Assembly: GCF_014337925.2 (NCBI RefSeq)
Contig: NZ_CP143423.1
Location: forward strand, 2,386,501-2,450,500
From: Roseobacter fucihabitans
GTDB lineage: Bacteria > Pseudomonadota > Alphaproteobacteria > Rhodobacterales > Rhodobacteraceae
DNA: 64,000 nt
Direction of reading: 5' to 3'
How positions within the stretch are numbered: the stretch's first letter is position 1; every line of letters begins with the position of its first letter. The translations under genes were made by a program, and so were the position numbers. Positions 18,000 through 63,402 of the stretch are shown in pieces. Below the pieces are notes generated by a model. The model ran no database searches. It was not told the DNA's origin and saw only the letters and a list, made by a program, of their open reading frames with translations.

Positions 18000-19193
18000 G
18001 TGCCCCGGCCAGAACTGGAGATTGCGGATATTTTCCGAAAGTTTGGTCCTGCGTGGCGGCAGGTCAATAAGGGCCATGTCAACCTGTCCCAGCTCAAAGT
18101 GATGTCCTCAATCGAAGCCTGCCGAACTGAGGCGCTCGGCGGGCATGTGGCGGCCTGTACCAAATGCAACCACATGCACATTGCGTACAATAGCTGCAAG
18201 AACCGGCACTGTCCCAAGTGCCAGAGTCCGGCCGCGCGCGACTGGATGGAAGCGCGCGCCGAGGATCTGCTGCCCGTGGAATATTTCCATGTCGTCTTCA
18301 CGTTGCCTGCGCAGATCGCTCGTATCGCCTACTGGAACAAGAAGGCCGTCTATGGCCTACTGTTCAAAGCGTCTGCGCAAACGGTGATGACAATTGCAGC
18401 CGATCCCAAACGGCTCGGCGCGCGGGTTGGCATGACCAGCGTCCTTCATACGTGGGGGTCGGCACTTACGCACCATCCCCATGTCCACATGATTGTCCCA
18501 GGCGGCGGTCTGTCGTCAGATGGCAAGAGATGGATCGCTTGCAAGCCGGGGTTCTTTCTACATGTGCGGGTGTTGTCACGACTGTTCCGGCGGCTGTTTA
18601 TCGAAGGGCTGCTTGCCCTGCACCGCGCAGGTGAACTGTCCTTCTTCGGCGATCTGAACGGGCTGTCGGACCCACAGGCCTTCGCCGCATATCTCGCCCC
18701 ACTGCGCAAAACCAAATGGGTGGTCTATGCCAAACCGCCATTCGGCGGGCCCGAAGCCGTGCTCGCCTATCTCAGCCGCTACACGCACCGCATCGCCATC
18801 TCAAACAGCCGTTTGATCAGTGCCGATGCCAACACCGTTGCGTTCCGATGGAAAGATTATCGCTTCAAATCTGGTGACGGGCGATCCGTCATGCACCTTT
18901 CCACATCAGAGTTCATCCGCCGCTTTCTGATCCATGTGCTACCGGACCGGTTCCACCGCATCCGCCATTATGGCCTGCTCGCCAGTTCGACCCGTAAGGC
19001 TAACATCGCAAAAGCTCGGACCTTACTTGGCGCACAAACCGCCAAACAGGATGACCCACCAGTCGCCGAGGTCATCCCGCTCACACTGCGAGACCCATGC
19101 CCCGGCTGCGGCGGGAAAATGCGCATCATCGAGACCTTCCGGCGGGGCCAAAGACCACAATCCCGCGCACCACCCAGAAAGGCCGCAGCATGA
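18000..19193 (+). CDS. IS91 family transposase (HUH, Y2 type)
   Basis: 397 residues from GTG 18000. The N-terminal zinc ribbon has cysteines in HVAACTKCNHMHIAYNSCKN and RHCPKCQSPAARDW. The HUH metal motif lies in THHPHVHMIVPGGG and the two catalytic tyrosines in LSRYTHRIAISN (Y-x3-Y, counting the Y of AYLSRY). A C-terminal cysteine pair is in RDPCPGCGGKM. It nicks and transfers one strand in rolling-circle transposition. The frame is intact, so the element may still be active. Confidence 0.93.
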   Translation: MPRPELEIADIFRKFGPAWRQVNKGHVNLSQLKVMSSIEACRTEALGGHVAACTKCNHMHIAYNSCKNRHCPKCQSPAARDWMEARAEDLLPVEYFHVVFTLPAQIARIAYWNKKAVYGLLFKASAQTVMTIAADPKRLGARVGMTSVLHTWGSALTHHPHVHMIVPGGGLSSDGKRWIACKPGFFLHVRVLSRLFRRLFIEGLLALHRAGELSFFGDLNGLSDPQAFAAYLAPLRKTKWVVYAKPPFGGPEAVLAYLSRYTHRIAISNSRLISADANTVAFRWKDYRFKSGDGRSVMHLSTSEFIRRFLIHVLPDRFHRIRHYGLLASSTRKANIAKARTLLGAQTAKQDDPPVAEVIPLTLRDPCPGCGGKMRIIETFRRGQRPQSRAPPRKAAA

Positions 19194-19592: not shown

Positions 19593-20585
19593 ATGACCGC
19601 AGCGGAACAAATATGCAGCGCCCAGCGCATTGATCTGGAAGGGTTGCAGGGCATTCAGGACATCTTGCTTATGCTGGCCATCGATCACTCAAAGATATTG
19701 GAACGCGTTGCCGTGCAGGGGTCTTTAATGCAGCGCACGGGCGGTAAGAATTGGTCCGCCTTTCAATTCGAAGACGACGGAAAGCCGTGGGCGCTGGGCG
19801 ATGACATAGCCCGTGCAAGCTTTGTCGCCGATGCAATCGCTATTCTCGAATTGCCAGAACATCGAAAGCGTGAAGCTGATTGGTACACCTCTATTCGGGT
19901 CCACCCAATCACGGGCGAAGAAACCGAAATCGTACAGGCCACCATATACGTTGAGGCCAGCGCGGAAAGCGAATTGACTTTTGGGCCATCCGAAGGGTTG
20001 GAACGCCAAGTGGTCCAACGCGTTTTGGAAGTCGGGATCGCTTGCAACGCCAAAGAGCGGATTGTCGAAATTTGCGCCCGTGGAGGAAAAAAGATGCGTG
20101 ACGAATACGCGTCATCGTTTTCAAAGCATTTTGCCCCGCAATCTGCCCCACCCGTTGAGACGCCACGGCGGGACGTGCTGTTAGCCAACCTGCGCTCACA
20201 TCCCAGCTTTCCCACAGAACCAGCCGACCGCATTGCAGAGGTCGAAGTATCATCCCTTGAATTTTAGACTGTTGGTGGCGGCTTTGCGCGGTTTGAGCAT
20301 CGCGGGGATGACGAAACCATTTATCAATTCCTAGAGCGCCAGTTTGGTGGGCAATCCCCCATTCACGCAGCGGGCTGGACGATCATTGGCGCAACACTTC
20401 GGATTATGCAAACGCCAGACGACGGAAAGCGGGCCACGACGCTGACTGTGACATTGCGCAGCCCCAACACCACCACCATTCCAAACAAGACCGAAGCAGA
20501 ACGTCAGTTTGTCATTGCCCTGCTGGATCGCTGGAAACTGATCGCGCCGCCGCCAGAACCGTTTGATGTGATAGAGGCTGTATAA
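19593..20585 (+). pseudogene. Unknown mobile-island protein interrupted by an in-frame amber codon
   Basis: From ATG 19593 the frame gives 224 residues (MTAAEQICSAQRIDLEGLQG to ADRIAEVEVSSLEF), then TAG at 20265-20267, then 105 more open codons in the same frame (TVGGGFARFEHRGDDETIYQ to EPFDVIEAV) ending TAA 20583-20585. The second part is normal protein-like sequence ending at the next gene's start. So a protein of about 330 residues has either one nonsense mutation or readthrough. I recognise no domain. The 5' end may also be lost to the IS91-type element. Confidence 0.55.
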
Positions 20586-51484: not shown

Positions 51485-52396
51485 ATGCCCATGACAGATG
51501 CGTTTGATCCGCCCCCCGGAGAGGCGGTCCATTTGCGCCCCGGATTGCGCCGGATTGTGGCTTCAAACCCCTCTGCGATGACCTATCGTGGCACCAATAC
51601 CTATCTGCTGGGAGATCGTGATATCGCCGTTATCGATCCCGGACCTGACGATCCGCACCACCTCAAGGCGATCCTGGCGGCCATCGCACCGGATCAGCGG
51701 ATCACACATATCATCGTGTCACACACGCATCTCGATCACACCCCCCTGGCGCGACCGCTCCAGGCGCATTGCGATGCGCAGATATATGGCTTTGGTGGTG
51801 CCAGCGCCGGGCGCTCCGAGATCATGCAACATCTCAGCGCAAGCGGCTTGGTTGGTGGTGGAGAAGGTGTGGACAAAGGGTTTTCACCAGATGTCACGCT
51901 TGCGGATGGCACCTTGATCGAGGCGCAGGGGTGGCGTTTGGAAACGCTCCACACGCCGGGGCATATCGGCAATCACATTTGTCTGGCGTGGGGTGATGAT
52001 TGCTTCACGGCCGATCATGTGATGGGGTGGGCAAGTTCGCTGGTCTCCCCACCAGACGGAGATTTAAGCGATTTCATGGCGTCTTGCCGCCGATTGGCAC
52101 AACGCAAATGGCGCAGTTTTTTCCCCGGCCACGGCGATGTGATCGCAGATCCCGCGGCGCGCCTGGACTGGCTGATCAAACATCGCAACGCGCGCGAAGC
52201 GGCGATCCTTGCGGCATTGCGGGCCAACCCCGCCCCGGCCCTGACCCTTGCAAAGGTCATCTACACGGAAATTCCAGATCATTTGTTACCCGCAGCAACG
52301 CGGAACGTTCTGGCACATCTCATCGATCTGATGCAGAGAGAAAAAGTGGCACCCTTAGGTGAATTGCATTCAGAGGCAGAATTCAAACTGCTGTAA
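51485..52396 (+). CDS. Metallo-beta-lactamase-fold hydrolase (LACTB2-like)
   Basis: 303 residues. The metal ligands are visible: H-x-H-x-D-H in IIVSHTHLDHTPLARPL, His in TLHTPGHIGNHICLAWGD, Asp in CFTADHVMGWASSLVSPPDG, and the C-terminal SFFPGHGDVIADP. The C-terminal winged-helix-like part (RNAREAAILAALRANPAPAL, NVLAHLIDLMQREKVAP) is that of LACTB2-type proteins, which hydrolyse RNA or thioesters. It is divergent from the kinase with 41 bases between. It is the last core gene before the tRNA-Asn island. Confidence 0.9.
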   Translation: MPMTDAFDPPPGEAVHLRPGLRRIVASNPSAMTYRGTNTYLLGDRDIAVIDPGPDDPHHLKAILAAIAPDQRITHIIVSHTHLDHTPLARPLQAHCDAQIYGFGGASAGRSEIMQHLSASGLVGGGEGVDKGFSPDVTLADGTLIEAQGWRLETLHTPGHIGNHICLAWGDDCFTADHVMGWASSLVSPPDGDLSDFMASCRRLAQRKWRSFFPGHGDVIADPAARLDWLIKHRNAREAAILAALRANPAPALTLAKVIYTEIPDHLLPAATRNVLAHLIDLMQREKVAPLGELHSEAEFKLL

Positions 52397-52691: not shown

Positions 52692-52736
52692 TGGCTCCGG
52701 CGGTAGGGATCGAACCTACGACCAATTGATTAACAG
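52692..52736. repeat. Outer attachment repeat (attL): copy of the 3' end of tRNA-Asn
   Basis: 45 bases beginning tggctccggcggtagggatc and ending gattaacag are identical to 62181-62225, the 3' 45 bases of the intact tRNA-Asn gene (minus strand). This is the duplicated target left by integration into the tRNA gene. The integrase gene begins about 105 bases inside it. Confidence 0.93.
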
Positions 52737-52842
52737 GGAACGACTCGCCAAGGGTGGTTCGCCAGATTTGATCAGTAAAATAGGGTAAAGCACTGTTCTG
52801 CAACGAAAAACAAGTTGTGCAACCACCGGTAGAGAACCGAAC

Positions 52843-54051
52843 ATGTCCTCATTGAATGTTGCAGAGGATGTTGCAGAGATGCCTAACCATAACCTGACCA
52901 CACGCCCCGCCATTGCGAAGATCAAGCAAGCGCAGGGCAACACCATCATGTATTCCGACCCATCGGTGAAACCCGATCCTGATGCCCGCGGCATCCGTCT
53001 TGCTGTCGGAGCCACCAAGAAGACGTGGGTGCTATCGAAGCGCATCGACGGTAAGGTGCGGTCCGTCACGCTGGGCGCATGGCCTGACTTGCCGACCGTC
53101 TATACCGCCCGCGATGTGGCAAAGGAAAAGATGGATGCTATCACGACCCGCACAGACGACCGCTCTACGGGCATCCACACGCTGCGCGATGCGATGGAAT
53201 CCGACATCGAGCAGTCGGATGCATCGGAGCGAACGAAGACCTATTACCGCGAGCAGATCGAGCGTCACCTTGCCAAGCTGTTCGACCGGCCCATTGACGA
53301 ATTGACACTGCCGGACCTTGAACGCGCCCTTGCGCCCCATGTCGATGGCAACGGCAAGCCGACCTCGAAGCAGCAGCACCTGCGCCAGATCATTGGCACG
53401 GCGTTTAAACGGGCGTCGGTTGTCCGTCGTATTCCAAACGTGGCCGACGCGCTCAAGAAGGTGAAATACCGGGCGCGGAACAACAAGGTGAAGTTCGATG
53501 TGGACGAAGCATGGCCCGCCCTTGAACTGATCTACGCAAAGAAGGCTCACAACCTGATTATCGGCACGGCTTGGGAGGTGATGCTGTTCACGGGCCTCCG
53601 CGCCAAGAACGTGACCGAACTCCGCTGGGCCGACATTGACCTCGACAGCGCCCGTCTGCGCGCCGCTGAATTGAAGAACGGGACGGAGGCGGCATTCCCC
53701 ATCGCTGACCGCGTTGTCGCGGCGCTGCGTGCGCTGCCCCGGCACAGCGAATGGGTCTTCCCGCAGCACGACACGGAAAAGCACATCTTCCATCCGCAGC
53801 AGTTGAAAGGCGATGGTGTCCGCATGACGCCGCACGATGCCCGCCGCCTGTTCACGACCGCAGCCCGCCGCTTGCGTCTGCCGTCTTACATCATCGACCA
53901 GTTGCGCGGTGACATGGAGAAGGGCGTGCAGGATCTCTATGATCAGGGGTCCATGTCCCACAAGGACGCGAACGCCATCGCCAAACAGATTGAGGTCGAA
54001 TGCGGGGCAGTACCTTCTTCGAATGTTGTCCAGATCGGCGTCAGGCGCTAA
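52843..54051 (+). CDS. Tyrosine integrase of element 1
   Basis: 402 residues from ATG 52843 (an alternative ATG is at 52879). The N-terminal arm-binding domain resembles DUF4102-type integrases (RGIRLAVGATKKTWVLSKRI, RSVTLGAWPDLPTVYTARDV). The core-binding domain follows (TKTYYREQIERHLAKLFDRP), then the catalytic domain: Arg in MLFTGLRAKNVTELRWADID, H-x-x-R in MTPHDARRLFTTAARRL, and a Tyr in KGVQDLYDQGSMSH. The gene reads away from the attachment site, as is typical. The frame is complete, so excision may still be possible. Confidence 0.92.
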   Translation: MSSLNVAEDVAEMPNHNLTTRPAIAKIKQAQGNTIMYSDPSVKPDPDARGIRLAVGATKKTWVLSKRIDGKVRSVTLGAWPDLPTVYTARDVAKEKMDAITTRTDDRSTGIHTLRDAMESDIEQSDASERTKTYYREQIERHLAKLFDRPIDELTLPDLERALAPHVDGNGKPTSKQQHLRQIIGTAFKRASVVRRIPNVADALKKVKYRARNNKVKFDVDEAWPALELIYAKKAHNLIIGTAWEVMLFTGLRAKNVTELRWADIDLDSARLRAAELKNGTEAAFPIADRVVAALRALPRHSEWVFPQHDTEKHIFHPQQLKGDGVRMTPHDARRLFTTAARRLRLPSYIIDQLRGDMEKGVQDLYDQGSMSHKDANAIAKQIEVECGAVPSSNVVQIGVRR

Positions 54052-54197
54052 TGTGGTCGCGCGTCGATGTCGCTGTGCGGCAGAACAAGCCGGCGTGACC
54101 ATATTCGATCCATCAGGGGCTGGTGCCGGATCGTATGAAGGCATCCGCCAGCATATCAACAGGCCTGCGTCTATTCTGAACGTGAAGGAGCCTGTCG

Positions 54198-54458
54198 ATG
54201 GAAGAACTCACCCAAGAAATCCGTGCGCTGCGCGATGAGTTGCGCGGCTTGCAGGTCAAGCAAAAGCTGCCTGATCTCATGACGCCTGCGCAATGTGCGG
54301 AATACCTGAACCGCTCGGAGGAGGTGCTTTACCTCTGGCGCAAAGAACGCAACGCAGGCGCACAAAGCGGCCCGCCGTTCTTGCACATTTCCAGCCGGAC
54401 AATCCTGTATGATCGGGAGGACGTTCTTGAATGGGCACGTTCTCACCGCGTGAACTGA
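54198..54458 (+). CDS. Excisionase/AlpA-like DNA-binding protein
   Basis: 86 residues from ATG 54198 behind gaaggag. A short coiled coil (MEELTQEIRALRDELRGLQV) leads into a helix-turn-helix of the excisionase family: LMTPAQCAEYLNRSEEVLYL, WRKERNAGAQSGPPFLHISS, RTILYDREDVLEWARSH. Located between integrase and replication gene, it probably controls excision or the replication operon, as AlpA does in satellites. Confidence 0.8.
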   Translation: MEELTQEIRALRDELRGLQVKQKLPDLMTPAQCAEYLNRSEEVLYLWRKERNAGAQSGPPFLHISSRTILYDREDVLEWARSHRVN

Positions 54459-54602
54459 AAAGAGGGACGAAGCCGCTAGAACCTCGTCCCTCTCGTTTTC
54501 ATCAAAGCAGCGAACCCATCGCATCGACAACTCGCTTATACATCACGCTTTGATGGAAACCGACCAGAAAACAAGGTAATAGCGTCTGCAAGAAAGAAGC
54601 AG

Positions 54603-57600
54603 ATGCACATATTTACAGCAACAAGCACCGGCCCGGACCTCCGAAAGGTCTGGCGTGCAGGCGACAACGGCCCGGAGCAGGACGAGCGTTCTGAGGGCTT
54701 TCGGTATGCCAAGGATTTCATCTACGAGCGGCACGACGTTGCTACGCTCGATGGCGTTTGCGACCTTCTCAACCGCCTTTCTGATGTACCTACGGCATCA
54801 TTGGTTCTTGGCGAACCATTGATCGAACGCGGTGGGCGCACGGGCCTCGACTTTGCGGACAATGCCACCAGCTTGTGCGTCGTCGATCTCGACTCATTGG
54901 AATATGACGGAACCGCAGAAGAAGCGGTGCGTTTTGCATTTCCATTCCTGCGCAGTCGTCGGTTTGTCTATGCCTTTTCGCCGTCGCCGGGCTTTAAGCC
55001 GGGGCATCGCCTCCGGGTCGCGTTTGAAGTCGAACCGTTGGACCTAACCGAGCAGCAAATCCACGCTGAACACTGGAACGCTGACCTTTCGCAGCGCATC
55101 GGGACCGACAGAAAACTGATCGACTATGGAATCTATAAGCCGGGTGGCTTTGTCTTCACGGCCAGACCCGAACTTCGCGGCCTAGACGACCCACATCCTG
55201 TGCGCGCACACTTGGTCGAAGGCATCGCTGGGCCTGTTGATGTGCTTAAGCTGCCCGACATGATCGAGGTCGATGTGGCACCTGCTGTCTTACTGGGGCA
55301 GATGCCGACGCTCCGCTGGGATGCAAGCAGTCGTCACGACTCGGTTTTGAAGTTCATGGTCGCCTATCGAACCGCGTTCCCTGAAAGCGTCTTTACCGAG
55401 TGCTGGGCTGCATTGTCCGGTGAGTATGAACGGCTTGGCGTGCGCGCGGCTGACAGGCATGACTTCGATGAGCGATACATCAAAGCCCGCTACCACAAAA
55501 TACGCGGCGCACGGCGCAGGCGTAAGGCGTTCCCGACGACGCGGCGGGAGGTGCCGCTCGCTCAGGCGACGCAGCGGCTCAGTGACGAGATCAAGACATT
55601 CGTTGCGGCAAACGAACCGGGCGTGAAGGTGATCGAAGCAGAGGCGGGTCTCGGCAAAACCTATTGGGCGCTTCACTGGCTCGGCGTCGAAACCCGATAT
55701 GCCGAACACACCAACGGCATCTTCTTCACCGACCTCTATGTGCCTAATCATAACCTTTCCGCACAGATCGAAGCAGACGCCCGCTCGCACGGCATGACCG
55801 CCTACACGGAGCTTGGTCGCAGCCAAGATTTGCACGGGCGACCCGTCTGCACGAAGCATGAGGCGATCTCAAAGGTTCAGGGGATCGTTAAGGAAACCCG
55901 AAAAGCGTTCTGTGGCAACGAGGTGGCGCAGTGTTCCGACCGACCTGGCTGCTTATGGTGGGAACTGCACAACAAGTCGCTGACCCATGATCTGCGCATC
56001 CGCACCCATGCTCACCTGCCGTTGCAGATCGCCAAGGAACACGGACACAGCCGCGTGCCGAACTTCGTTGTGATCGACGAGAACTTTCTCGGCGCGTTGA
56101 TCAAGGACGGCTATGTCGAGATCAAAGACCTGTGCGACGTGATGCGCCACGATATGGGCGAATGGCTTTTGAGGCTTGCCCAAGTGTTCAAGGACGGCTT
56201 GACCATCGAACGGCTTGAGGGGGCCGGATTTACGGTCGAAGTCTGCAAAGAATTGATCAAGGCGGAGACTGAACTTGCACCGGAGGTCGAGATCACGCCC
56301 GACATGTCAGCCAGCGAGGCGCTGAACGCGGCGACCGACTACGATGGGCAGTGGTATAAGTACGTCTCATTCTGGCGTCGTCTGCGCGATGCGCTTGAGG
56401 CTGGCTCGCTCAACCGCCTGCGCGTCACGCCGAACAAGAAGGGCGTCTACCTGAACTGGCGGCAGAAGATTGCGGGCATCCCGTGGGACAAGGAGACCAA
56501 TCGCCCGCGCGTGCCTGTGTTGATCCTGTCTGCGACCATCAAGCGGTCGATGGTCGAAGCCGTGTTGCCGGTGGATGAATGGGTTTCCATCGAAGTTGAA
56601 AAGCACCCAGACGCAAAGGTGACTCAGGTTCCAATCAACACGTCGAAGAAGTCTCTGCTCTACGGCACGGGCGACCGCGTTGAGGAATGGGATGAGACGG
56701 ACAAGAAAGACAAGGCACGGGCAGAACAGTTCCGGGCAGATGTAGCGCGCATTTCAGAGGGGCGGTATCTGTTCTCCTATAAGGCGCTTATAGACGAAAA
56801 CATGATGCTGGCCGGATGGTTCAATGCTCTGGAGGGGCTGAACGATTGGGCGGGCGGCAAGATCGACATTGTTGGCCGGCCATTACCAGCGCCACAGGAC
56901 GTTGAGGACATGGCACGCGCTATCCATCAAGACGGTGATCCGATTGTGCCTGTCGCGCAATGGTATCCCAAGCGTCCGATTGCGATGGTCGGCGGCGCTG
57001 GCATGGCGTGGTGCGAACGCCACACCGATCCGCGCGTTGAAGATTTGCGCTGGGTCGTCTGCGAAGGTGCGATGATGCAGGCGGCAGCGCGGGCGCGGCA
57101 TGTGCGGCAGGGCTGCGAGATCAGGCTGTTCACGAACATGGTGTTGCCAGTGAAGGTCGATGAGGTGCAGCGGTTCGATGATCTGCTGCCGGACGAGTTG
57201 GAATATGCCCGTGCGCCTGTGCGCGTCGCCACGCCAAAGATGGCGCAGATGCTGTTTCGGAAGTTTGAGGAAATGTCACCGAACGGGATCAAACAGGGAT
57301 TGGGCGACCTATTCGGCTGGGCGATGGAACGTCGGGCCGAGTTTATTGAGGTGAGGATGCGCGGCGACAATCACTGGCGGCGCGTCTGGATTGGTGAGGG
57401 CGGCTGGCGGTATCTGTGTGATCGGTTGGAGGTCGTCGATTGGCGGGAACCTGTGCGGCGGAAGGACGACAACGCTGCGAGGTTCGACGCCATGCAGGAT
57501 GCATCGCGGCACATGCAAGAGGTGCGTGAGTTGCGCGAAGCGTTCGAACGTGAGCCTTGGCTTGATGAAGATGGCACGGTGTTCGCAGGGATGGTGACGA

Positions 57601-57689
57601 CGGCTGAGGGCTGGGAGATCGACGCCGATGCGCTTACGGCAGAGACGCAGCCAGCAGTGTGGCCGTGGCATGGTGCGCAGTATCGGTGA
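54603..57689 (+). CDS. Primase-helicase replication protein of element 1
   Basis: 1028 residues from ATG 54603. The N-terminal 300 residues look like an archaeo-eukaryotic primase-type module: the acidic strand SLCVVDLDSLEYDG (h-h-D-h-D), then RFVYAFSPSPGFKPGHRLRV and LIDYGIYKPGGFVFTARPEL. The middle and C terminus form a superfamily-2-like helicase: Walker A VIEAEAGLGKTYWALHW (about residues 343-356), Walker B FVVIDENFLGALIK, motif III VPVLILSATIKRSM, and a motif VI-like MMQAAARARHVRQG. A cysteine cluster (NEVAQCSDRPGCLWWE) lies between. It probably unwinds and primes the element's own origin. Its size and domain pairing are unusual; I do not know a named family. Confidence 0.7.
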   Translation: MHIFTATSTGPDLRKVWRAGDNGPEQDERSEGFRYAKDFIYERHDVATLDGVCDLLNRLSDVPTASLVLGEPLIERGGRTGLDFADNATSLCVVDLDSLEYDGTAEEAVRFAFPFLRSRRFVYAFSPSPGFKPGHRLRVAFEVEPLDLTEQQIHAEHWNADLSQRIGTDRKLIDYGIYKPGGFVFTARPELRGLDDPHPVRAHLVEGIAGPVDVLKLPDMIEVDVAPAVLLGQMPTLRWDASSRHDSVLKFMVAYRTAFPESVFTECWAALSGEYERLGVRAADRHDFDERYIKARYHKIRGARRRRKAFPTTRREVPLAQATQRLSDEIKTFVAANEPGVKVIEAEAGLGKTYWALHWLGVETRYAEHTNGIFFTDLYVPNHNLSAQIEADARSHGMTAYTELGRSQDLHGRPVCTKHEAISKVQGIVKETRKAFCGNEVAQCSDRPGCLWWELHNKSLTHDLRIRTHAHLPLQIAKEHGHSRVPNFVVIDENFLGALIKDGYVEIKDLCDVMRHDMGEWLLRLAQVFKDGLTIERLEGAGFTVEVCKELIKAETELAPEVEITPDMSASEALNAATDYDGQWYKYVSFWRRLRDALEAGSLNRLRVTPNKKGVYLNWRQKIAGIPWDKETNRPRVPVLILSATIKRSMVEAVLPVDEWVSIEVEKHPDAKVTQVPINTSKKSLLYGTGDRVEEWDETDKKDKARAEQFRADVARISEGRYLFSYKALIDENMMLAGWFNALEGLNDWAGGKIDIVGRPLPAPQDVEDMARAIHQDGDPIVPVAQWYPKRPIAMVGGAGMAWCERHTDPRVEDLRWVVCEGAMMQAAARARHVRQGCEIRLFTNMVLPVKVDEVQRFDDLLPDELEYARAPVRVATPKMAQMLFRKFEEMSPNGIKQGLGDLFGWAMERRAEFIEVRMRGDNHWRRVWIGEGGWRYLCDRLEVVDWREPVRRKDDNAARFDAMQDASRHMQEVRELREAFEREPWLDEDGTVFAGMVTTAEGWEIDADALTAETQPAVWPWHGAQYR

Positions 57690-58167
57690 TGCGCAGTTGC
57701 GACTTGGTCGCAGTTATACCCTCACTCGTCTTAATAGTATGTATCTCTATTAACGGCAGTGACGGTATAAACTGCTGCCTGTGATGCCGCGCTGCGGACA
57801 TGCTGCCACTGTCACTCGGAGCGGTCTATCCGTGATGCGTCAACAATGCTGACATAGTTGCGCATGACCAATTGATCACCGATCAATCGCACTGGTGGAT
57901 TGCACTTGCACATCAAGCGGTTGGACAGCCTCTGCAACAACGCTGCAACATCCAGTTGCGACCAAGTCGCAGATACACACCGGCACCTTTTGGAACCCCC
58001 TGCTGCTGACGTGGAAACCCGGCCCCACAGTCGGAAACATCTGAGCAAAAATCTGCGACCGCGCTCGACCCCCACGACAGCCCCGGCCAGCTAGGCGCGT
58101 GCTGCGCAACTTGACCCTCGCCCCTACGTCTGTGCCCGACGGCCCGACAACTGCCTTCACGCGGGCG
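57690..58167. promoter_or_regulatory. Intergenic region with several dyads; candidate origin or operator region
   Basis: No gene is seen in 478 bases. TGCGACTTGGTCGCA (57698-57712) recurs as its exact reverse complement at 57957-57971; each copy is itself a 6-bp dyad with a 3-base spacer. ATTGATC-ACC-GATCAAT (57871-57887) is a perfect 7-bp dyad, and TTAATAG (57731-57737) pairs with CTATTAA (57747-57753). The region lies between the primase-helicase stop and the convergent DUF4145 gene, so the dyads could be iterons, repressor sites or terminators. Confidence 0.5.
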
Positions 58168-58881
58168 CTAAGCGGGTTTCTTTTTCGCGCCCTTGGGTTG
58201 TCGCTTTGGGACACCCTTGCCAAGTTCGGCTCCAATGTCTTCAAGCAAGAAGGCGCGATGCAAAAAGGCTTCTAGGATAGTCATCATGGCATCCAATTGC
58301 TTAGGCTTCGGCTGCCAACCCCGATGTGCTGCTGCACTTCCTGCGTCGATCAACGCGCCGAGAACCGTCTTTTCCTTTTCGGTGATGTGATCGCCAGCCT
58401 TCAACTCATTGAGTTTTTGTTGAAACGTCTTGGCTGGGTCAATCTTGAGCAATTCAGATGCGCGATCAAACACTGTCCGCATACCGATTGCGGCTAAAAC
58501 GCCCAAATTATTATCTAAGGCAGTATAAACGTCATTGAATAGCGATCCAAGAACGCGGTCCTCAAAACCTATTTCAGCTACCCACTCGGGGGAGCGACGC
58601 TTAGCCGCTGGAGGCCAGTAATGAACGGTTTCAGTGTATTCTGTTTCTTCTTCACCAGTTTCTGGATCATAATAATGGAAGTAATCTTCGGAATTTGAAC
58701 TTGTAGATTTGAAGTAGTGTTGACCACAGCCTCGGCACTCCAATACCCGATAGAACGTATTGGCTTGGAAGTCGAAGCCCGCGCCGCCTCCGTGAAATTC
58801 ATCTTTGTGCTCCGCGACAATATCCGCGCGATCCGATCCACAACTTGGGCAATGACCCTCTTCAAATTTCTTGTCCGCCAT
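58168..58881 (-). CDS. Zinc-ribbon DUF4145 protein, probable element cargo
   Basis: 237 residues on the strand opposite to its neighbours. An N-terminal zinc ribbon has cysteines in EEGHCPSCGSDRADI and RVLECRGCGQHYFKS. The C-terminal half is the helical DUF4145 domain: LFNDVYTALDNNLGVLAAIG, MRTVFDRASELLKIDPAKTF, KEKTVLGALIDAGSAAAHRG. A basic tail (KGVPKRQPKGAKKKPA) ends it. DUF4145 proteins are often found near restriction systems and in prophages; function is unproven. Opposite strand and island setting suggest a cargo gene, possibly defensive. Confidence 0.75.
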   Translation of the reverse strand: MADKKFEEGHCPSCGSDRADIVAEHKDEFHGGGAGFDFQANTFYRVLECRGCGQHYFKSTSSNSEDYFHYYDPETGEEETEYTETVHYWPPAAKRRSPEWVAEIGFEDRVLGSLFNDVYTALDNNLGVLAAIGMRTVFDRASELLKIDPAKTFQQKLNELKAGDHITEKEKTVLGALIDAGSAAAHRGWQPKPKQLDAMMTILEAFLHRAFLLEDIGAELGKGVPKRQPKGAKKKPA

Positions 58882-59109
58882 TGCTCGGGCATCTCCGCGA
58901 TTTTCATTTAGCTTAGAGTCTACCCGTCAGGGCGACAAAGCTCCACCTGATTTATTCAGCCCGAACAACCTCCTGCACCTCATTCCTGAGTTGAGCGCCC
59001 CGGCGGCGTCCGTCCACATTCGATCTGCGCGGCTTGGCTCATCTGAACGGCCATCTTCGCGCGACGTTCCTTTCGGATGGCCGTTCACCCACAACGAAAG
59101 CATCAACCC

Positions 59110-59382
59110 ATGCAAATCACTTTCACCGCAGACGGTGACGAGGCCTGCACGCTCGCTCAAAAAACCGTTTCATCCTCGACCGCCTTCTCCATCCCGATCT
59201 CGAAACCGTTTTTGCAATCCGGCCTCCGTGAACTGCTGCTCAACCCCGAACAGCGCGACGTGATGGTCGATTCCGTCATGATCGACCGTTCCCGCGATGG
59301 TCTTCGTGTCCATGCGGGCAGCGGTCGCTTCGAACTGCCTTACCGGCACCTGCTCGCCCTCGTCCTTGAGGCGACGGCATGA
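59110..59382 (+). CDS. Small phage-type protein of unknown function
   Basis: 90 residues from ATG 59110 (MQITFTADGDEACTLAQKTV). It has a Ser/Thr-rich start and a compact end (GLRELLLNPEQRDVMVDSVM, GRFELPYRHLLALVLEATA). Its TGA overlaps the portal gene's ATG (ATGA), so the two are cotranslated; such a neighbour may be a packaging or head accessory protein. The 230 bases before it hold no gene. Confidence 0.6.
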   Translation: MQITFTADGDEACTLAQKTVSSSTAFSIPISKPFLQSGLRELLLNPEQRDVMVDSVMIDRSRDGLRVHAGSGRFELPYRHLLALVLEATA

Positions 59383-60065
59383 GGAATTGGGACCGGCTGC
59401 AATCGCAATACCACCTCATTCGCGACTGCCTCGACGGCGAAGATGCTGTGAAGGATCAAGGGCAATTGTATGTCCCGAAACCTGACGGCATGTCGGCGCA
59501 GAATTACACCCACTATCTTGACCGCGCCTGCTTCTACGGAGCGCCGGAAATGACTCTCCGCGCCCTTGTCGGTCTCGCCCTGCGCAAAGACCCCGTGGTC
59601 AAGCTGCCGCCGCGCCTCGAACCGATGAGGTTGAATGCGACCTATGAGAACGCGCCGATGCAGGTTCTCATTGAGAATATGGTGCGCGAGGTCGCGACGA
59701 TGGGCCGTTTCGGCATCCTGCTCGACTTCCCGACAGACGGCGCAACTGCCAATACCGTGCCGCACATCAGCACCTTCCGCGCGGAAAGCATCGAAGATTT
59801 CTCGACAGGTTTTGTCGATGGTCGAAAGATGCTGACCCGCGTGCATCTGTCGTCCGATGAACAATGGGAAGATGCGGACGTAACCTATGAGTTGATTCTT
59901 GAGGCGGGCGTCTATCAGTTCCGCCGCTTCATTCGTGACCAGCACAAAACCCGCGTCGATGTGGGCGACAACCATATCCCAACAGTCAACGGCAAACCAC
60001 TGGATCAGATTCCGTTCTTGATGGTCAGCCATGAAGGGCTAGGGATCGAACCTACGACCAATTGA
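59379..60065 (+). pseudogene. DUF4055 phage portal-like protein, truncated at the internal attachment site
   Basis: Open for 228 codons (MRNWDRLQSQYHLIRDCLDG). DUF4055 features are KPDGMSAQNYTHYLDRACFY, GAPEMTLRALVGLALRKDPV, VLIENMVREVATMGRFGILL. The family runs to about 450 residues; here the frame leaves the family after LDQIPFLMVSHEG, and the last residues (GIEPTTN) are translated from the 35-bp attachment copy. So more than half of the portal and everything after it was removed when the second attachment site arose. Confidence 0.75.
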
Positions 60066-60075
60066 TTAACAGTCT
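60041..60075. repeat. Internal attachment copy
   Basis: 35 bases beginning tagggatcgaacctacgacc are identical to 62193-62227 and, over 33 of them, to 52704-52736. It lacks the first 12 bases of the 45-bp repeat (the CCA end of the tRNA). It is the junction between elements 1 and 2. Confidence 0.88.
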
Positions 60076-60215
60076 GAAAAAGCGAGTAAATCATGGTCCA
60101 TTCTCGCCAATTCGGGGCGTACGAACCCATGTAAACAAGGCAATATTCGTCCTATCGGCTCACTCGGCATCATCCGAGCTGTGCCCAGAAACAGTGCTCA
60201 GGACGGTATTTATCA

Positions 60216-60631
60216 ATGACCATATTCAAGTTCACAGAGGCGCGGGTTCGCGACCTCGAATTGGGTTCCGGCATCCACAGAGACACGGACGTGAAGGGTC
60301 TACTCTGCATTTGCCACAAGACCACGAAGACCTTCGCTGCGCAGGGCGATGTACGGCGGAACAAGCGCCACGTCCGCACCGTTCGCGTCAAGATCGGACG
60401 CACCGATCTGGTCCGTCTGGGCGAGGCGCGAAACGAGGCCAGAAAGCTGATGGCGTCGATCCGACCGCTGGACCCGAGGCTACAGGCATGACGCTGGAAC
60501 AGGCCCTCGTCGAGCACTTCAAGGAACGGAACCTCTCGGCGGCAACGGTGCGAAACTACCAGTACCACATGGACAACTACCTGGCGCGTCTTCGGCGTCG
60601 GTCCGTGGCTGACATAACGTGTTCCCGGTAA
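60216..60631 (+). pseudogene. Integrase of element 2, frameshifted and truncated
   Basis: ATG 60216 gives the DUF4102-type N terminus (MTIFKFTEARVRDLELGSGI, RTVRVKIGRTDLVRLGEARN, EARKLMAS). Near 60450 the frame shifts; the other frame continues GVDPTAGPEATGMTLEQALV, EHFKERNLSAATVRNYQYHM, RLRRRSVADIT, the core-binding domain, and then ends. The catalytic domain is absent. After it, 60619 to about 60800 reads as an unrelated protein fragment (HLYGDARSVMGPIQFAGPDF, LNLFWSDQMLVALAIKRSEA) that I do not recognise and that runs into the broken end of the ATPase gene. Confidence 0.75.
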
Positions 60632-60754
60632 GGCACCTCTACGGCGACGCGCGATCGGTCATGGGTCCGATCCAGTTCGCCGGACCCGACTTCGCGCTGG
60701 CCCAATCGGAACTGAACCTGTTCTGGTCCGACCAGATGCTCGTCGCACTCGCCA

Positions 60755-61771
60755 TTAAGCGAAGCGAGGCACCCGGCAAGGACAAGCGCCCCTACCGGCC
60801 ATCAGGTCGTCGCGGTAGGACTCCTTCGCATAGGCGACCCAGCCGACTACAGGATAGAAGCTCCCGTTCGATGAGATAAATCCAGCCGCGGCGCCAGCAA
60901 CATCACGACCACTCTCGTCAACAGCCTTAAATTCTGCACTGCGCGATGGGTCGATGGCTTCGGTTGTGGGGCCCGATAATATTATCTTGGTGTTGGGCAT
61001 CGTAGCGATTTCGAACCCACCGAGTATGCGCTCTCGACCATGAGTGCCCGCTGCGAGGTTTGTGTCGACGAGCTTTATTCGCCAGTCAGCCGTGGCGACG
61101 CCAAAACGCTGGGCTAACTGCCTCGCGAAGATATCCATGTCTGGTACCTGACGTCTGTTGAAATCGCGCATGATGATCTTTGTTCCGGCCTTCGGCTGGA
61201 CAGTCTCGTCGAGTGCTCCGATTTCTGGCTGATAGTCTGAGTCGTCGTCCGACATGATGTCGCTGCGGCGCATTATGAAATGTGCCGTCCGATAACCCTT
61301 AGCGCCGTTTCCATTTTCGTCCTTGCCGTCCATCAGGTCACCGCCCGACGAGATAACTTCCAGCGTCTCGCAGATGCCAAACGGTGCCAGCTTTCCGACT
61401 CCCTTTCGACCCATGACGCGGCGCCCATGGATCGGCGTCCGGTCTCCCCTTGCAGGGTCCCGTCGGCGCTCGCCTCCAACCTTGAGATAGAAGGGATTGA
61501 CGACGTCAGGGTTCATTCCGTGGCCTGTGTCGCTGACGGTGATCGTGAAGCCGCTGTCTGCCACTACCCCCTTCGACAGTGACGCCAACATGGATCCCAT
61601 TGGTGCCTCAATCGTGACCTCCTCCGCATCGGCGTCGTAGCCGTTGGCGACGAGCTCCGCGATAACCGCCGAGACCTTGTCATAGAGCTTGACCCCCAGC
61701 TTATCGACGGTCATCCGCGAAATTGTCATCAAATACTTGCCGCGGTCTTCCGCCGTATTGCTGTCCGTCAT
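60755..61771 (-). pseudogene. HSP90/MORC-type ATPase (GHKL), C-terminally truncated
   Basis: 338 codons. The Bergerat ATP site is complete: N box VSAVIAELVANGYDADAEEV, G1 TITVSDTGHGMNPDVVNPF, G2-like RRVMGRKGVGKLAPFGICE, then GTKIIMRDFNRRQVPDMDIF. The rest of the transducer domain follows to WVAYAKESYRDDLMAG, after which the last 12 residues are unrelated, because the gene is cut at about 60800. Relatives are much longer. Such ATPases occur in bacterial defence loci. It overlaps the upstream RHH gene by four bases, so the pair was an operon. Confidence 0.72.
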
Positions 61772-61971
61772 TCACGACCCCTTCGTCGCCCAGCGACCTC
61801 TTCATCAGTTACGTCGAAGCCGGCTTTTCTGAGGGCGTCCAAGACTATCGTACGTTTCGTCCGTCCGGTCTCGGCGGCTTTCACGTCCAGTGCGTGCTTG
61901 ACCCGCCGCGGCACGGTCACCTGCAGGTGGACCTCGTCCGGGTGAGGCTTCTCTTTTCGTTGCGATGGCAT
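61768..61971 (-). CDS. Ribbon-helix-helix-like small protein preceding the ATPase
   Basis: 67 residues. The pattern HLQVTVPRRVKHALDVKAAE followed by TGRTKRTIVLDALRKAGFDV is a ribbon-helix-helix DNA-binding domain (strand, helix, helix) with a basic N terminus and tail. Its stop overlaps the start of the ATPase gene by four bases. It may autoregulate the pair. Antitoxins share the fold, but the partner here is not a toxin family. Confidence 0.7.
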   Translation of the reverse strand: MPSQRKEKPHPDEVHLQVTVPRRVKHALDVKAAETGRTKRTIVLDALRKAGFDVTDEEVAGRRRGRE

Positions 61972-62180
61972 GACTCATGCTCCGATCATGAAATCACCAT
62001 TTCATGACTTCGAGTATCTGTGAAGAGCCTATCTGTCTGGAATTGTAGACACTTGCAGATTGAGCACTGGCTTTGCGTCCGAATACAGCGTCAAAGCCGC
62101 GCTAGACGCGAATACTGTATCTATACTGTGTTTGAGTAGCTCACACCTGGCCCGTATGGCGTCTAAGTGCTTGTTTTTAT

Positions 62181-62225
62181 TGGCTCCGGCGGTAGGGATC
62201 GAACCTACGACCAATTGATTAACAG
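62181..62225. repeat. Outer attachment repeat (attR) within tRNA-Asn
   Basis: The 3' 45 bases of the intact tRNA-Asn gene, identical to 52692-52736. It marks the right end of the tandem island. Confidence 0.93.
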
Positions 62226-62255
62226 TCAACTGCTCTACCGCTGAGCTACGCCGGA
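62181..62255 (-). tRNA. tRNA-Asn (anticodon GUU)
   Basis: 75 bases with encoded CCA. Acceptor TCCGGCG pairs with CGCCGGA, D-arm GCTC/GAGC, anticodon loop CTGTTAA, and T-arm GTAGG/CCTAC all fold. The gene is intact although its 3' half is the integration target of two elements. Confidence 0.97.
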
Positions 62256-62945
62256 ACGGTTTGTGCGTCATAACAGCGACAAATTATATCGTCCAGAGGA
62301 TTTTACAGGAAAAATCAGGGATTTCTGTTCTTGAGCGAGTGCCCATAGACAATCACCTTGAAGCGATCCGCCCGGCGGCCCAGTTCTAGCAGGCAGAAGA
62401 GTTGCAATCTGCTTTATCGCAGCCCGTTGCGGTAGCTCTGAATTCTGGGACCTTTGCGAAGTCATTCGCGAGCATGTAGCGCCAATCGTAGATTTTTTCG
62501 TCCTCTTCCTCTTTAACTTTATAGCTCATTTTGAGGCGGTGTAACTACGATTTTTCCCCGCGCAGCGCGGTTTGGGACCCTCTGCGCAGCACCCACTTTA
62601 GCGGAGGAGGTTGAGAAGATACTGAAAATCATTCTTGGAAACCTCATTTATCAGTAGCTAGGCGCGAAAATACTGTGGGGTTCCTCAGACTCTGACTGTG
62701 TTGACGCGGTGCATCTGGATCCATCGGTCCCCGGCGCGCTTCTTTTGCAGAATAACAGGTATTCTGAGGGTGTCGGAAATGGCCCTGTCTCAAAGCCCCG
62801 CAAAAAAGACGCGCGCCGATGGCATGTTCAAGATTGCAGCAAACCCGCGCCGCAGCGTTCAACATCGCCCGAAAGTAACGAAAAAATTAAGGTATGGCGC
62901 GCATAAGATAGAGTATTCATTAAATATTCACGAAAAGGGCGCTTG
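62256..62945. other. Long region without a recognisable gene
   Basis: About 690 bases between tRNA-Asn and the Lrp-type gene. Short frames on both strands are not protein-like, and I do not recognise a known RNA. A G-rich ribosome site and AT-rich promoter-like sequence precede the Lrp gene near its end. Confidence 0.4.
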
Positions 62946-63402
62946 ATGCTGGATGATTTGGACTTGCGGCTTTTGGAGGCCTTGCAGAAGGACGCCAATC
63001 TGACGGCCCAGCAATTGAGGGATGTGCTGCATCTATCGCCAAGTCAGGCGGGGCGCAGACGGCAACGTCCGGAAAATGACGGCTTCATTCGCGCCTATGT
63101 CGCACAGCTCAACGCCACGCGGCTCGGACTACATATTCAGGGGTTCATTCAGGTTCACATCACGATGGAAGTGCCCGAGCATGGTGAAACCTTTGGAGCA
63201 CCTGGTGAACACACGCCCGGAAATCACGAGCGCGTGGACAATGACCCGCGATGCTGATTATCTGTTGCGGGCGTACTGCGTTGATTTGCCTGCCTTCAAC
63301 GCGCTTACTCACAAAATATCGCTGCCGCATCCCGCTGTGGCGCGCGTCCACAACCAGATTGTTATGGACCAGCTAAAATCCGAGGGGCCTTTGCCCACCT
63401 GA
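62946..63402 (+). pseudogene. Lrp/AsnC family regulator with a one-base frameshift
   Basis: ATG 62946 after aaaaggg gives the winged-helix (MLDDLDLRLLEALQKDANLT, AQQLRDVLHLSPSQAGRRRQ) and the start of the RAM ligand domain (LNATRLGLHIQGFIQVHITM). At about 63183 (gagcatggtgaaacc) an extra G breaks the frame; without it the family sequence resumes: [60 protein letters not shown], ending TGA 63402. As read, the protein loses most of its effector domain. The next gene starts 26 bases on, so the two were probably an operon. A sequencing error is possible. Confidence 0.7.

Follow-up and report, generated by a model that had tools for sequence, protein, structure and literature searches.

How does a bacterial genome come to carry three copies of the 3′ end of a single tRNA gene within ten kilobases, the middle one of them fused to a phage portal gene? 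The question is raised by a 64,000-nucleotide stretch of Roseobacter fucihabitans DNA (contig NZ_CP143423.1, positions 2,386,501 to 2,450,500; hereafter the window, in whose own coordinates positions are given), which holds an island ending at a tRNA-Asn gene. The best explanation, which we consider very probable, is that two satellite-like elements integrated in tandem at tRNA-Asn, that a later deletion joined the portal gene of the first element to an attachment (att) copy, and that the intact relatives of this first element are probably phage satellites.

Attachment copies in the window and in relatives

The attachment gene is tRNA-Asn(gtt), on the minus strand at 62181-62255 (ARAGORN; Rfam tRNA, 72.4 bits), and the right att copy lies inside it at 62181-62225. 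The far (left) copy, a displaced 45-bp 3′ half of the same gene, also on the minus strand, is found at 52692-52736, and direct comparison bears out a preliminary description of this DNA in that the two have the same letters over all 45 bp. A middle copy exists as described, one base away from the 60041-60075 given for it: it occupies 60040-60074 (minus strand), is without the 12-bp CCA end, and is identical to the tRNA copy over 35 bp and to the left copy over 33 bp. At up to two mismatches, this 33-bp core has exactly three sites in the 4.85-Mb genome, all within the island, and a backward control has none; the repeat is thereby ruled out as a common tRNA fragment, a reading that the preliminary description had allowed for. 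An Rfam scan returned tRNAs only. An integrase gene or remnant reads away from each of the two left-hand copies, again as described, the one intact (52843-54051) and the other broken (60216-60631).

The same att sequence was searched for in the source genome and 18 relatives of the genus. In six of these relatives (G001, G003, G004, G006, G014 and G018) the 45 bp occur a second time, and in five of the six the two copies share a contig, at a distance of 5-15 kb. A hidden Markov model (HMM) of the integrase identified an integrase open reading frame (ORF) or remnant adjoining the far copy in all six, and also adjoining the far copies of two family-level elements, L078 and L079; this model was built from eight integrases, and four of the eight loci scored with it (L055, L056, L057 and L079) had supplied sequences. 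The 11 single-copy relatives fetched (L061-L071; G008 was left out) yielded no integrase within the 7-11 kb downstream, and in G017 there is one additional 41-bp match (90%) at another place. The repeats in relatives are thus located at element ends beside integrases and not at unrelated positions, which upholds the description of two tandem elements at tRNA-Asn: the window has three direct att copies sharing a core, an integrase for each unit, and att copies of the kind that mark element ends in relatives.

In 11 fragment copies (two in the window and nine in L054-L057, L059, L060, L078, which has two, and L079), identity to the tRNA gene starts at CTGTTAA, and agreement before this motif extends over 0-4 bp. 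In the tRNA gene itself, TTGA and TCAA enclose this motif, which forms the anticodon loop. Strand exchange probably takes place at this motif, with the incoming element bringing a new 3′ half of the tRNA.

As a separate observation, the L078 locus (genome G312) contains a third full-length copy of the 3′ half, which is inverted, at 19644 (minus strand), about 600 bp past the far copy at 19049 (plus strand).

Two elements and the join in the portal gene

Element 1 (52737-60039, plus strand) is by DNA alignment a right-truncated member of a family of integrative elements of about 14.6 kb, of which the element of Roseobacter sp. H9 (G018; locus L060) is whole, at 14,579 bp. The two are 91.8% identical over 52692-58045 and 84.3% identical over 58944-60037. 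The truncation falls in the portal gene (59379-60065, plus strand; phrog_145, 5.1e-40), which matches phrog_145 at profile positions 16-247 of 493 only and has its ORF end inside the att copy, in agreement with the earlier statement that the middle copy lacks the CCA end and is fused to a portal gene; the intact portal of L060 is complete, at 448 amino acids (aa). Likeness to relatives ends after about 220 residues, where the DNA runs from GAAGGGCT into AGGGATCGAACC of the att copy, and where L060 has GAAGGCTTGCGCCC and L076 has GAAGGGCTGCGACC. Comparison with L060, L076 and L056 places the join at 60039-60040, where codon ~220 of the portal gene meets the 13th base of the att copy, and judged from these relatives its two sides share at most one base (T). 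With L060 as the ruler, 6,710 bp are missing from element 1, comprising the rest of the portal gene, three small genes, the gene for the small terminase subunit (TerS), both genes for the large one (TerL), a cargo zone and the right arm, as well as the 12 bp with which the att copy starts. A search of the whole genome with the intact L060 portal found a single site, covering residues 3-226 of 448, and no second portal half; no plasmid relatives of the element 1 DNA were found.

By reasoning, the 3′ half in the middle copy belongs to element 1 whichever element came first, which places the deletion within element 1. The preliminary description had attributed the loss of its right side either to the second arrival or to a later deletion. 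The loss stands, and of the two causes a later deletion is favoured, because the 12 missing bases (the CCA end) are part of the right att copy of element 1 itself and because element 2's side of the join is intact, matching the left end of a related element, L057. Either order of arrival yields the same structure, and the order is therefore not readable from it.

Towards the left, element 1 retains an intact tyrosine integrase of 402 aa that reads inward (52843-54051, plus strand; Pfam Phage_integrase, 2.4e-11; phrog_1, 1.3e-27; 96% to L060), followed by an AlpA/HTH_17-type excisionase-regulator of 86 aa (54198-54458, plus strand; phrog_66, 6.7e-6; HTH_17, 26.7 bits against a Pfam cut-off of 27). 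Two TGTTGCAGAG repeats near the integrase end (52857-52878) are possible arm sites for the integrase; the same word occurs in reverse complement at the tRNA-side arm of L060. A protein of 1028 aa comes next (54603-57689, plus strand), and is called replicase-like here on the strength of one weak match to a DNA helicase family (phrog_2488, 7.4e-4) and of GLGKT, VVIDE and SAT sequences, which we take to be helicase-type motifs and which are kept in six relatives, save for the L of GLGKT. It has no Pfam match, a profile search of the PDB returned one weak and meaningless match (E 0.48), and AlphaFold2 models, at a mean predicted local distance difference test score of 28.8 for this protein and 47.3 for the TerS candidate of the family, were too poor for use. 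Between the replicase gene and the cargo, CTCTGCAACAACGCTGCAACA at 57930-57950 resembles the repeats at 52857-52878 and could represent replication iterons or additional integrase sites.

The cargo slot of element 1 encodes a DUF4145 protein (58168-58881, minus strand; PF13643, 2e-11), and the same slot in L060 holds a SIR2-type gene. The segment 58046-58943 has a G+C fraction of 0.523 versus 0.576 for the whole of element 1, which fits a swappable slot. To its right lies the gene for a 101-aa protein of the packaging module, without an assigned function (59077-59382, plus strand; 92% to L060), followed by the portal remnant. Ratios of non-synonymous to synonymous substitution rates (dN/dS) were calculated against L060 for the integrase (0.065), the replicase (0.066), the portal remnant (0.068), the 101-aa protein (0.117) and AlpA (0.334), and suggest that the break is not old.

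Element 2 (60075-62180, plus strand) is a remnant. Its left 580 bp (60040-60619, counted from the att copy), which include what is left of its integrase, are 74% identical to the left end of L057, a 14.1-kb element of G006. The integrase remnant (60216-60631, plus strand; Arm-DNA-bind_3, 1.6e-4, below the Pfam cut-off) is frameshifted into two frames (60216-60491 and 60488-60631), the pieces being 76% and 80% identical to the intact 374-aa integrase of L057, and only the first part of the gene remains. Further to the right are a GHKL-type ATPase gene of 338 aa (60755-61771, minus strand; HATPase_c_3, 3.5e-15; positions 5-207 of 644 of phrog_6203), which spans under one third of profiles that are 611-695 positions long and is apparently cut at its 3′ end, and an adjoining gene for a 67-aa protein (61768-61971, minus strand) with no family match. 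L057 itself encodes an integrase, a primase (phrog_1156, 1.9e-69), a small terminase (phrog_4044, 5.7e-9) and a protein that is 37.5% identical to the AlpA of element 1 and has no PHROG match, a combination that makes it look like a phage-inducible chromosomal island (PICI).

The intact family and its packaging genes

Complete copies of the element 1 family are present at tRNA-Asn in L060, L056, L078 and L079, at 14.6-15.2 kb, and G014 (L076) carries a member at another location. Their genes are ordered integrase, AlpA, replicase, cargo, 101-aa protein, portal, three small proteins, TerS candidate, TerL ATPase, TerL nuclease and cargo; the 101-aa protein was not found by BLAST in L056 and L078. 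The small conserved module proteins without an assignment measure from about 80 to 235 aa. TerL is divided in all four complete elements into two separate, slightly overlapping ORFs for the ATPase and the nuclease (L060:5024-6515), and in L060 the portal and the TerL ATPase match phrog_145 (2e-98) and phrog_7579 (5.9e-26), respectively. The TerS of L060 is a candidate by position, size and weak profile matches: it has no PHROG or Pfam match, and three of nine matches in a profile search of the PDB (E 0.46-1.9) are to small terminases, all weak (E 0.46-0.72). Between elements, dN/dS values of 0.048-0.104 for the portal, TerS and both TerL parts (rough for the portal, whose dS is near 1) indicate that these genes are kept by selection.

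The modules are mosaic. Compared with element 1, L078 is 92% identical in the integrase, 45% in the replicase and 83% in the portal, and L105 is 91% identical in the integrase (over the 159 residues available), 24% in the replicase and 92% in the portal. Searches with the replicase found it in 4 of 394 genomes of a family-level sample, including the source genome and one weak match, and searches with the TerL ATPase found it in 17 of 390 genomes of an order-level sample. When the 16 TerL loci besides G018 were scanned with family HMMs, some of which included members of the scanned set, 13 had integrase, AlpA, TerS, TerL ATPase and TerL nuclease together, 11 of these 13 had the portal too, and the replicase HMM matched only four of the 13, so that the remaining loci use other replication genes. 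The stretch examined of L116 had no integrase or AlpA, L118 had the two TerL parts only and L120 a TerL fragment only. By HMM, L117 and L119 have integrase, AlpA, TerS and split TerL without a DUF4055-type portal, and in L117 the place of the portal is taken by a 425-aa ORF (L117:5134-6408) with no PHROG match. The cargo slot differs among members, as in the exchange of DUF4145 (element 1) for SIR2 (L060), and reverse-transcriptase models match one of 72 ORFs of the complete elements, probably L056:9954-11018; SIR2 and reverse transcriptase are both defence-type cargo.

Genes for a capsid or tail were looked for in three PHROG scans, which were run without a capsid-bearing phage as positive control. 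The four complete elements have 72 ORFs of 150 aa or longer, and the best 25 of the 27 families matched by these include none for a capsid or tail; four members each were matched by portal, integrase and TerL families, and the other named families were of replication or DNA-processing types. In 12 further loci, the ends of which are mostly undefined, 108 ORFs of at least 230 aa gave no capsid or tail family among the best 25 of 68, in a scan that shows any family matched by at least two members and in which ORFs wholly inside longer ones were dropped. Likewise, no such family was among the best 25 of 39 in the odd loci, for 31 of their 63 ORFs (all 15 of L120 and the known or shadow-type ORFs of the others were left out). 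The families listed include no major capsid protein, protease or head-tail connectors.

From this gene content, we read the family as one of phage satellites that carry their own packaging motor. In the simplest working model, a helper phage would make heads and tails, and the satellite's portal and terminase would take some of these heads and fill them with satellite DNA. More specifically, a satellite lineage of the Roseobacteraceae might borrow helper capsids and tails, supply its own portal and terminase, and convert procapsids at the portal vertex, a proposal that we put forward tentatively, as a reasonable possibility rather than as the expected outcome. If true, it would invert the arrangement of capsid-forming satellites, in which the head is the satellite's own and the tail alone is borrowed. 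The best phage relatives of the portal, at 38-40% identity, are Pseudanabaena phage Pan1 and roseophages R26L and R5C; those of the TerL ATPase are at about 30%, and none was found for TerS, and with relatives so distant or absent no helper can be named.

Competing explanations and known satellites

Element 1 could be what is left of an ordinary prophage whose capsid and tail genes used to follow, on the right, the portal, itself a phage gene. We regard this as improbable, since the four complete relatives measure only 14.6-15.2 kb, against the tens of kb of a temperate prophage genome, and have no capsid or tail family among the best 25 of their 27, and since an inward integrase followed by an AlpA-type gene, together with the absence of tail genes, is among the signs that tell satellites from prophages (PMC10111431). 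Element 1 is closer to a satellite than to a prophage. The att copy within the portal reading frame might also recall the helper-embedded PICIs, which target late genes of their helpers (PMC10111431), so that element 2 would have integrated into the portal gene of element 1. This is barely credible: element 2 ends at tRNA-Asn and the core is tRNA sequence, and integration into the portal is ruled out as the other half of that gene is missing from the genome. An assembly artefact as the source of the three copies or of the portal join is very improbable as well. Repeats of 33-45 bp can mislead assemblies; on the other hand, the repeat is short, the window lies within a 4.52-Mb contig, and the join is at the edge of the shared repeat and not inside it.

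Under tandem integration followed by deletion, two satellite-like elements would have inserted at the anticodon loop of tRNA-Asn by means of their tyrosine integrases, each carrying a replacement 3′ half of the tRNA, to give the order far copy, element 1, middle copy, element 2, tRNA. A later deletion of ~6.7 kb, probably a single event with a microhomology of at most 1 bp, would then have brought portal codon ~220 up against the 13th base of element 1's right att copy, taking away the rest of the portal, TerS, the split TerL, the cargo zone and the right integrase-binding arm, and with them presumably the mobility of the element. Element 2 would have lost most of its body separately.

Several observations weigh against this account. 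The right end of element 2 resembles L057 over only about 20 bp beside the tRNA, and over 100 bp its right arm does not score above shuffles against that of L057. Outside the window's left copy, the flank does not match that of any relative better than shuffles do, and the surroundings have undergone rearrangement. No viral contigs with the replicase, TerL ATPase or TerS were found, and satellite behaviour is deduced from sequence.

The flanks of other elements suggest that the tRNA-Asn site has been stacked repeatedly, as arm-like sequence lies past two far copies: that of G001 is followed by a stretch resembling the tRNA-side arm of G006 (score 120), and that of G018 by one resembling the tRNA-side arm of G001 (score 136), the best of 2,772 shuffles scoring 36. 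A common tRNA terminator accounts for part of such likeness. The sequence past the far copy of G003 has no match in the source genome. All 17 relatives fetched have a gene of the metallo-beta-lactamase fold no more than 100 bp from the 5′ side of tRNA-Asn; in the window, this gene (51485-52396) is instead beside the far att copy, in opposite orientation, and the 5′ flank of the tRNA, of which 57 bp are conserved, abuts an Lrp-like gene (62256-63402 stretch), whose usual neighbour in G003 has its only match in the window's genome (177 bp, 73%) ~946 kb away. The displaced gene and the distant neighbour indicate that the chromosome has been rearranged, one breakpoint being at the island.

Published examples exist of satellites in tandem that have three att sites, among them a long unit next to a remnant of 2-3 kb (PMC10111431), and the tandem in the window is therefore a new case of a known kind. 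The Gram-negative PICIs described there (Tommasini et al., 2023, PMC10111431) are like the present elements in such tandems, and in an inward integrase followed by AlpA/HTH_17 (present in element 1 and its relatives), a replication gene (a replicase-like candidate here), a late zone and no tail genes seen. They differ in that the site here is tRNA-Asn of Roseobacteraceae, the replicase has no Pfam match, and the late zone is a portal-TerS-split TerL block with no recognisable capsid, whereas the capsid is given as their commonest late gene. Capsid-forming PICIs (PMC10690885) share the portal, both terminase subunits (TerS being a candidate here), the AlpA-integrase layout and a size of ~14-15 kb, but they encode a major capsid protein, protease and head-tail connectors. 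AH14b, a putative satellite of AH14a in Pseudomonas (PMC4936722), is similar in its ~17 kb, integrase, AlpA, primase (here a replicase-like candidate) and lack of structural genes; it is described as using the helper capsid, and, unlike in the family here, the portal and terminase described are those of AH14a. Phage-inducible chromosomal minimalist islands (PICMIs; PMC10803314) are also marine satellites with integrase, AlpA, replication genes and defence cargo, but are reported there to be located at fis and to have no identifiable packaging genes.

A family with portal and terminase and without a capsid was not found described in the literature searched, in which few subscription papers were reached, and the family of element 1 is apparently undescribed. 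PICIs with captured, varied late-gene clusters have been reported (PMC10111431), among which a capsid-less cluster may be included. VEIMEs and tycheposons are further elements that a review mentions. Within the literature covered, searches naming Rhodobacterales returned nothing, or one paper about an unrelated archaeal element.

The tandem illustrates clearly how satellites stack up and decay at a tRNA gene, and the intact type is found in Roseobacter sp. H9. The cargo slot, which varies among members of the family, parallels those of other satellites. If the family is mobilised by phages, its packaging strategy would stand between that of P4 and the PICIs, which borrow most of the particle, and that of the capsid-forming PICIs, which make the whole head, and it would place satellites in the Rhodobacterales, a major marine group.

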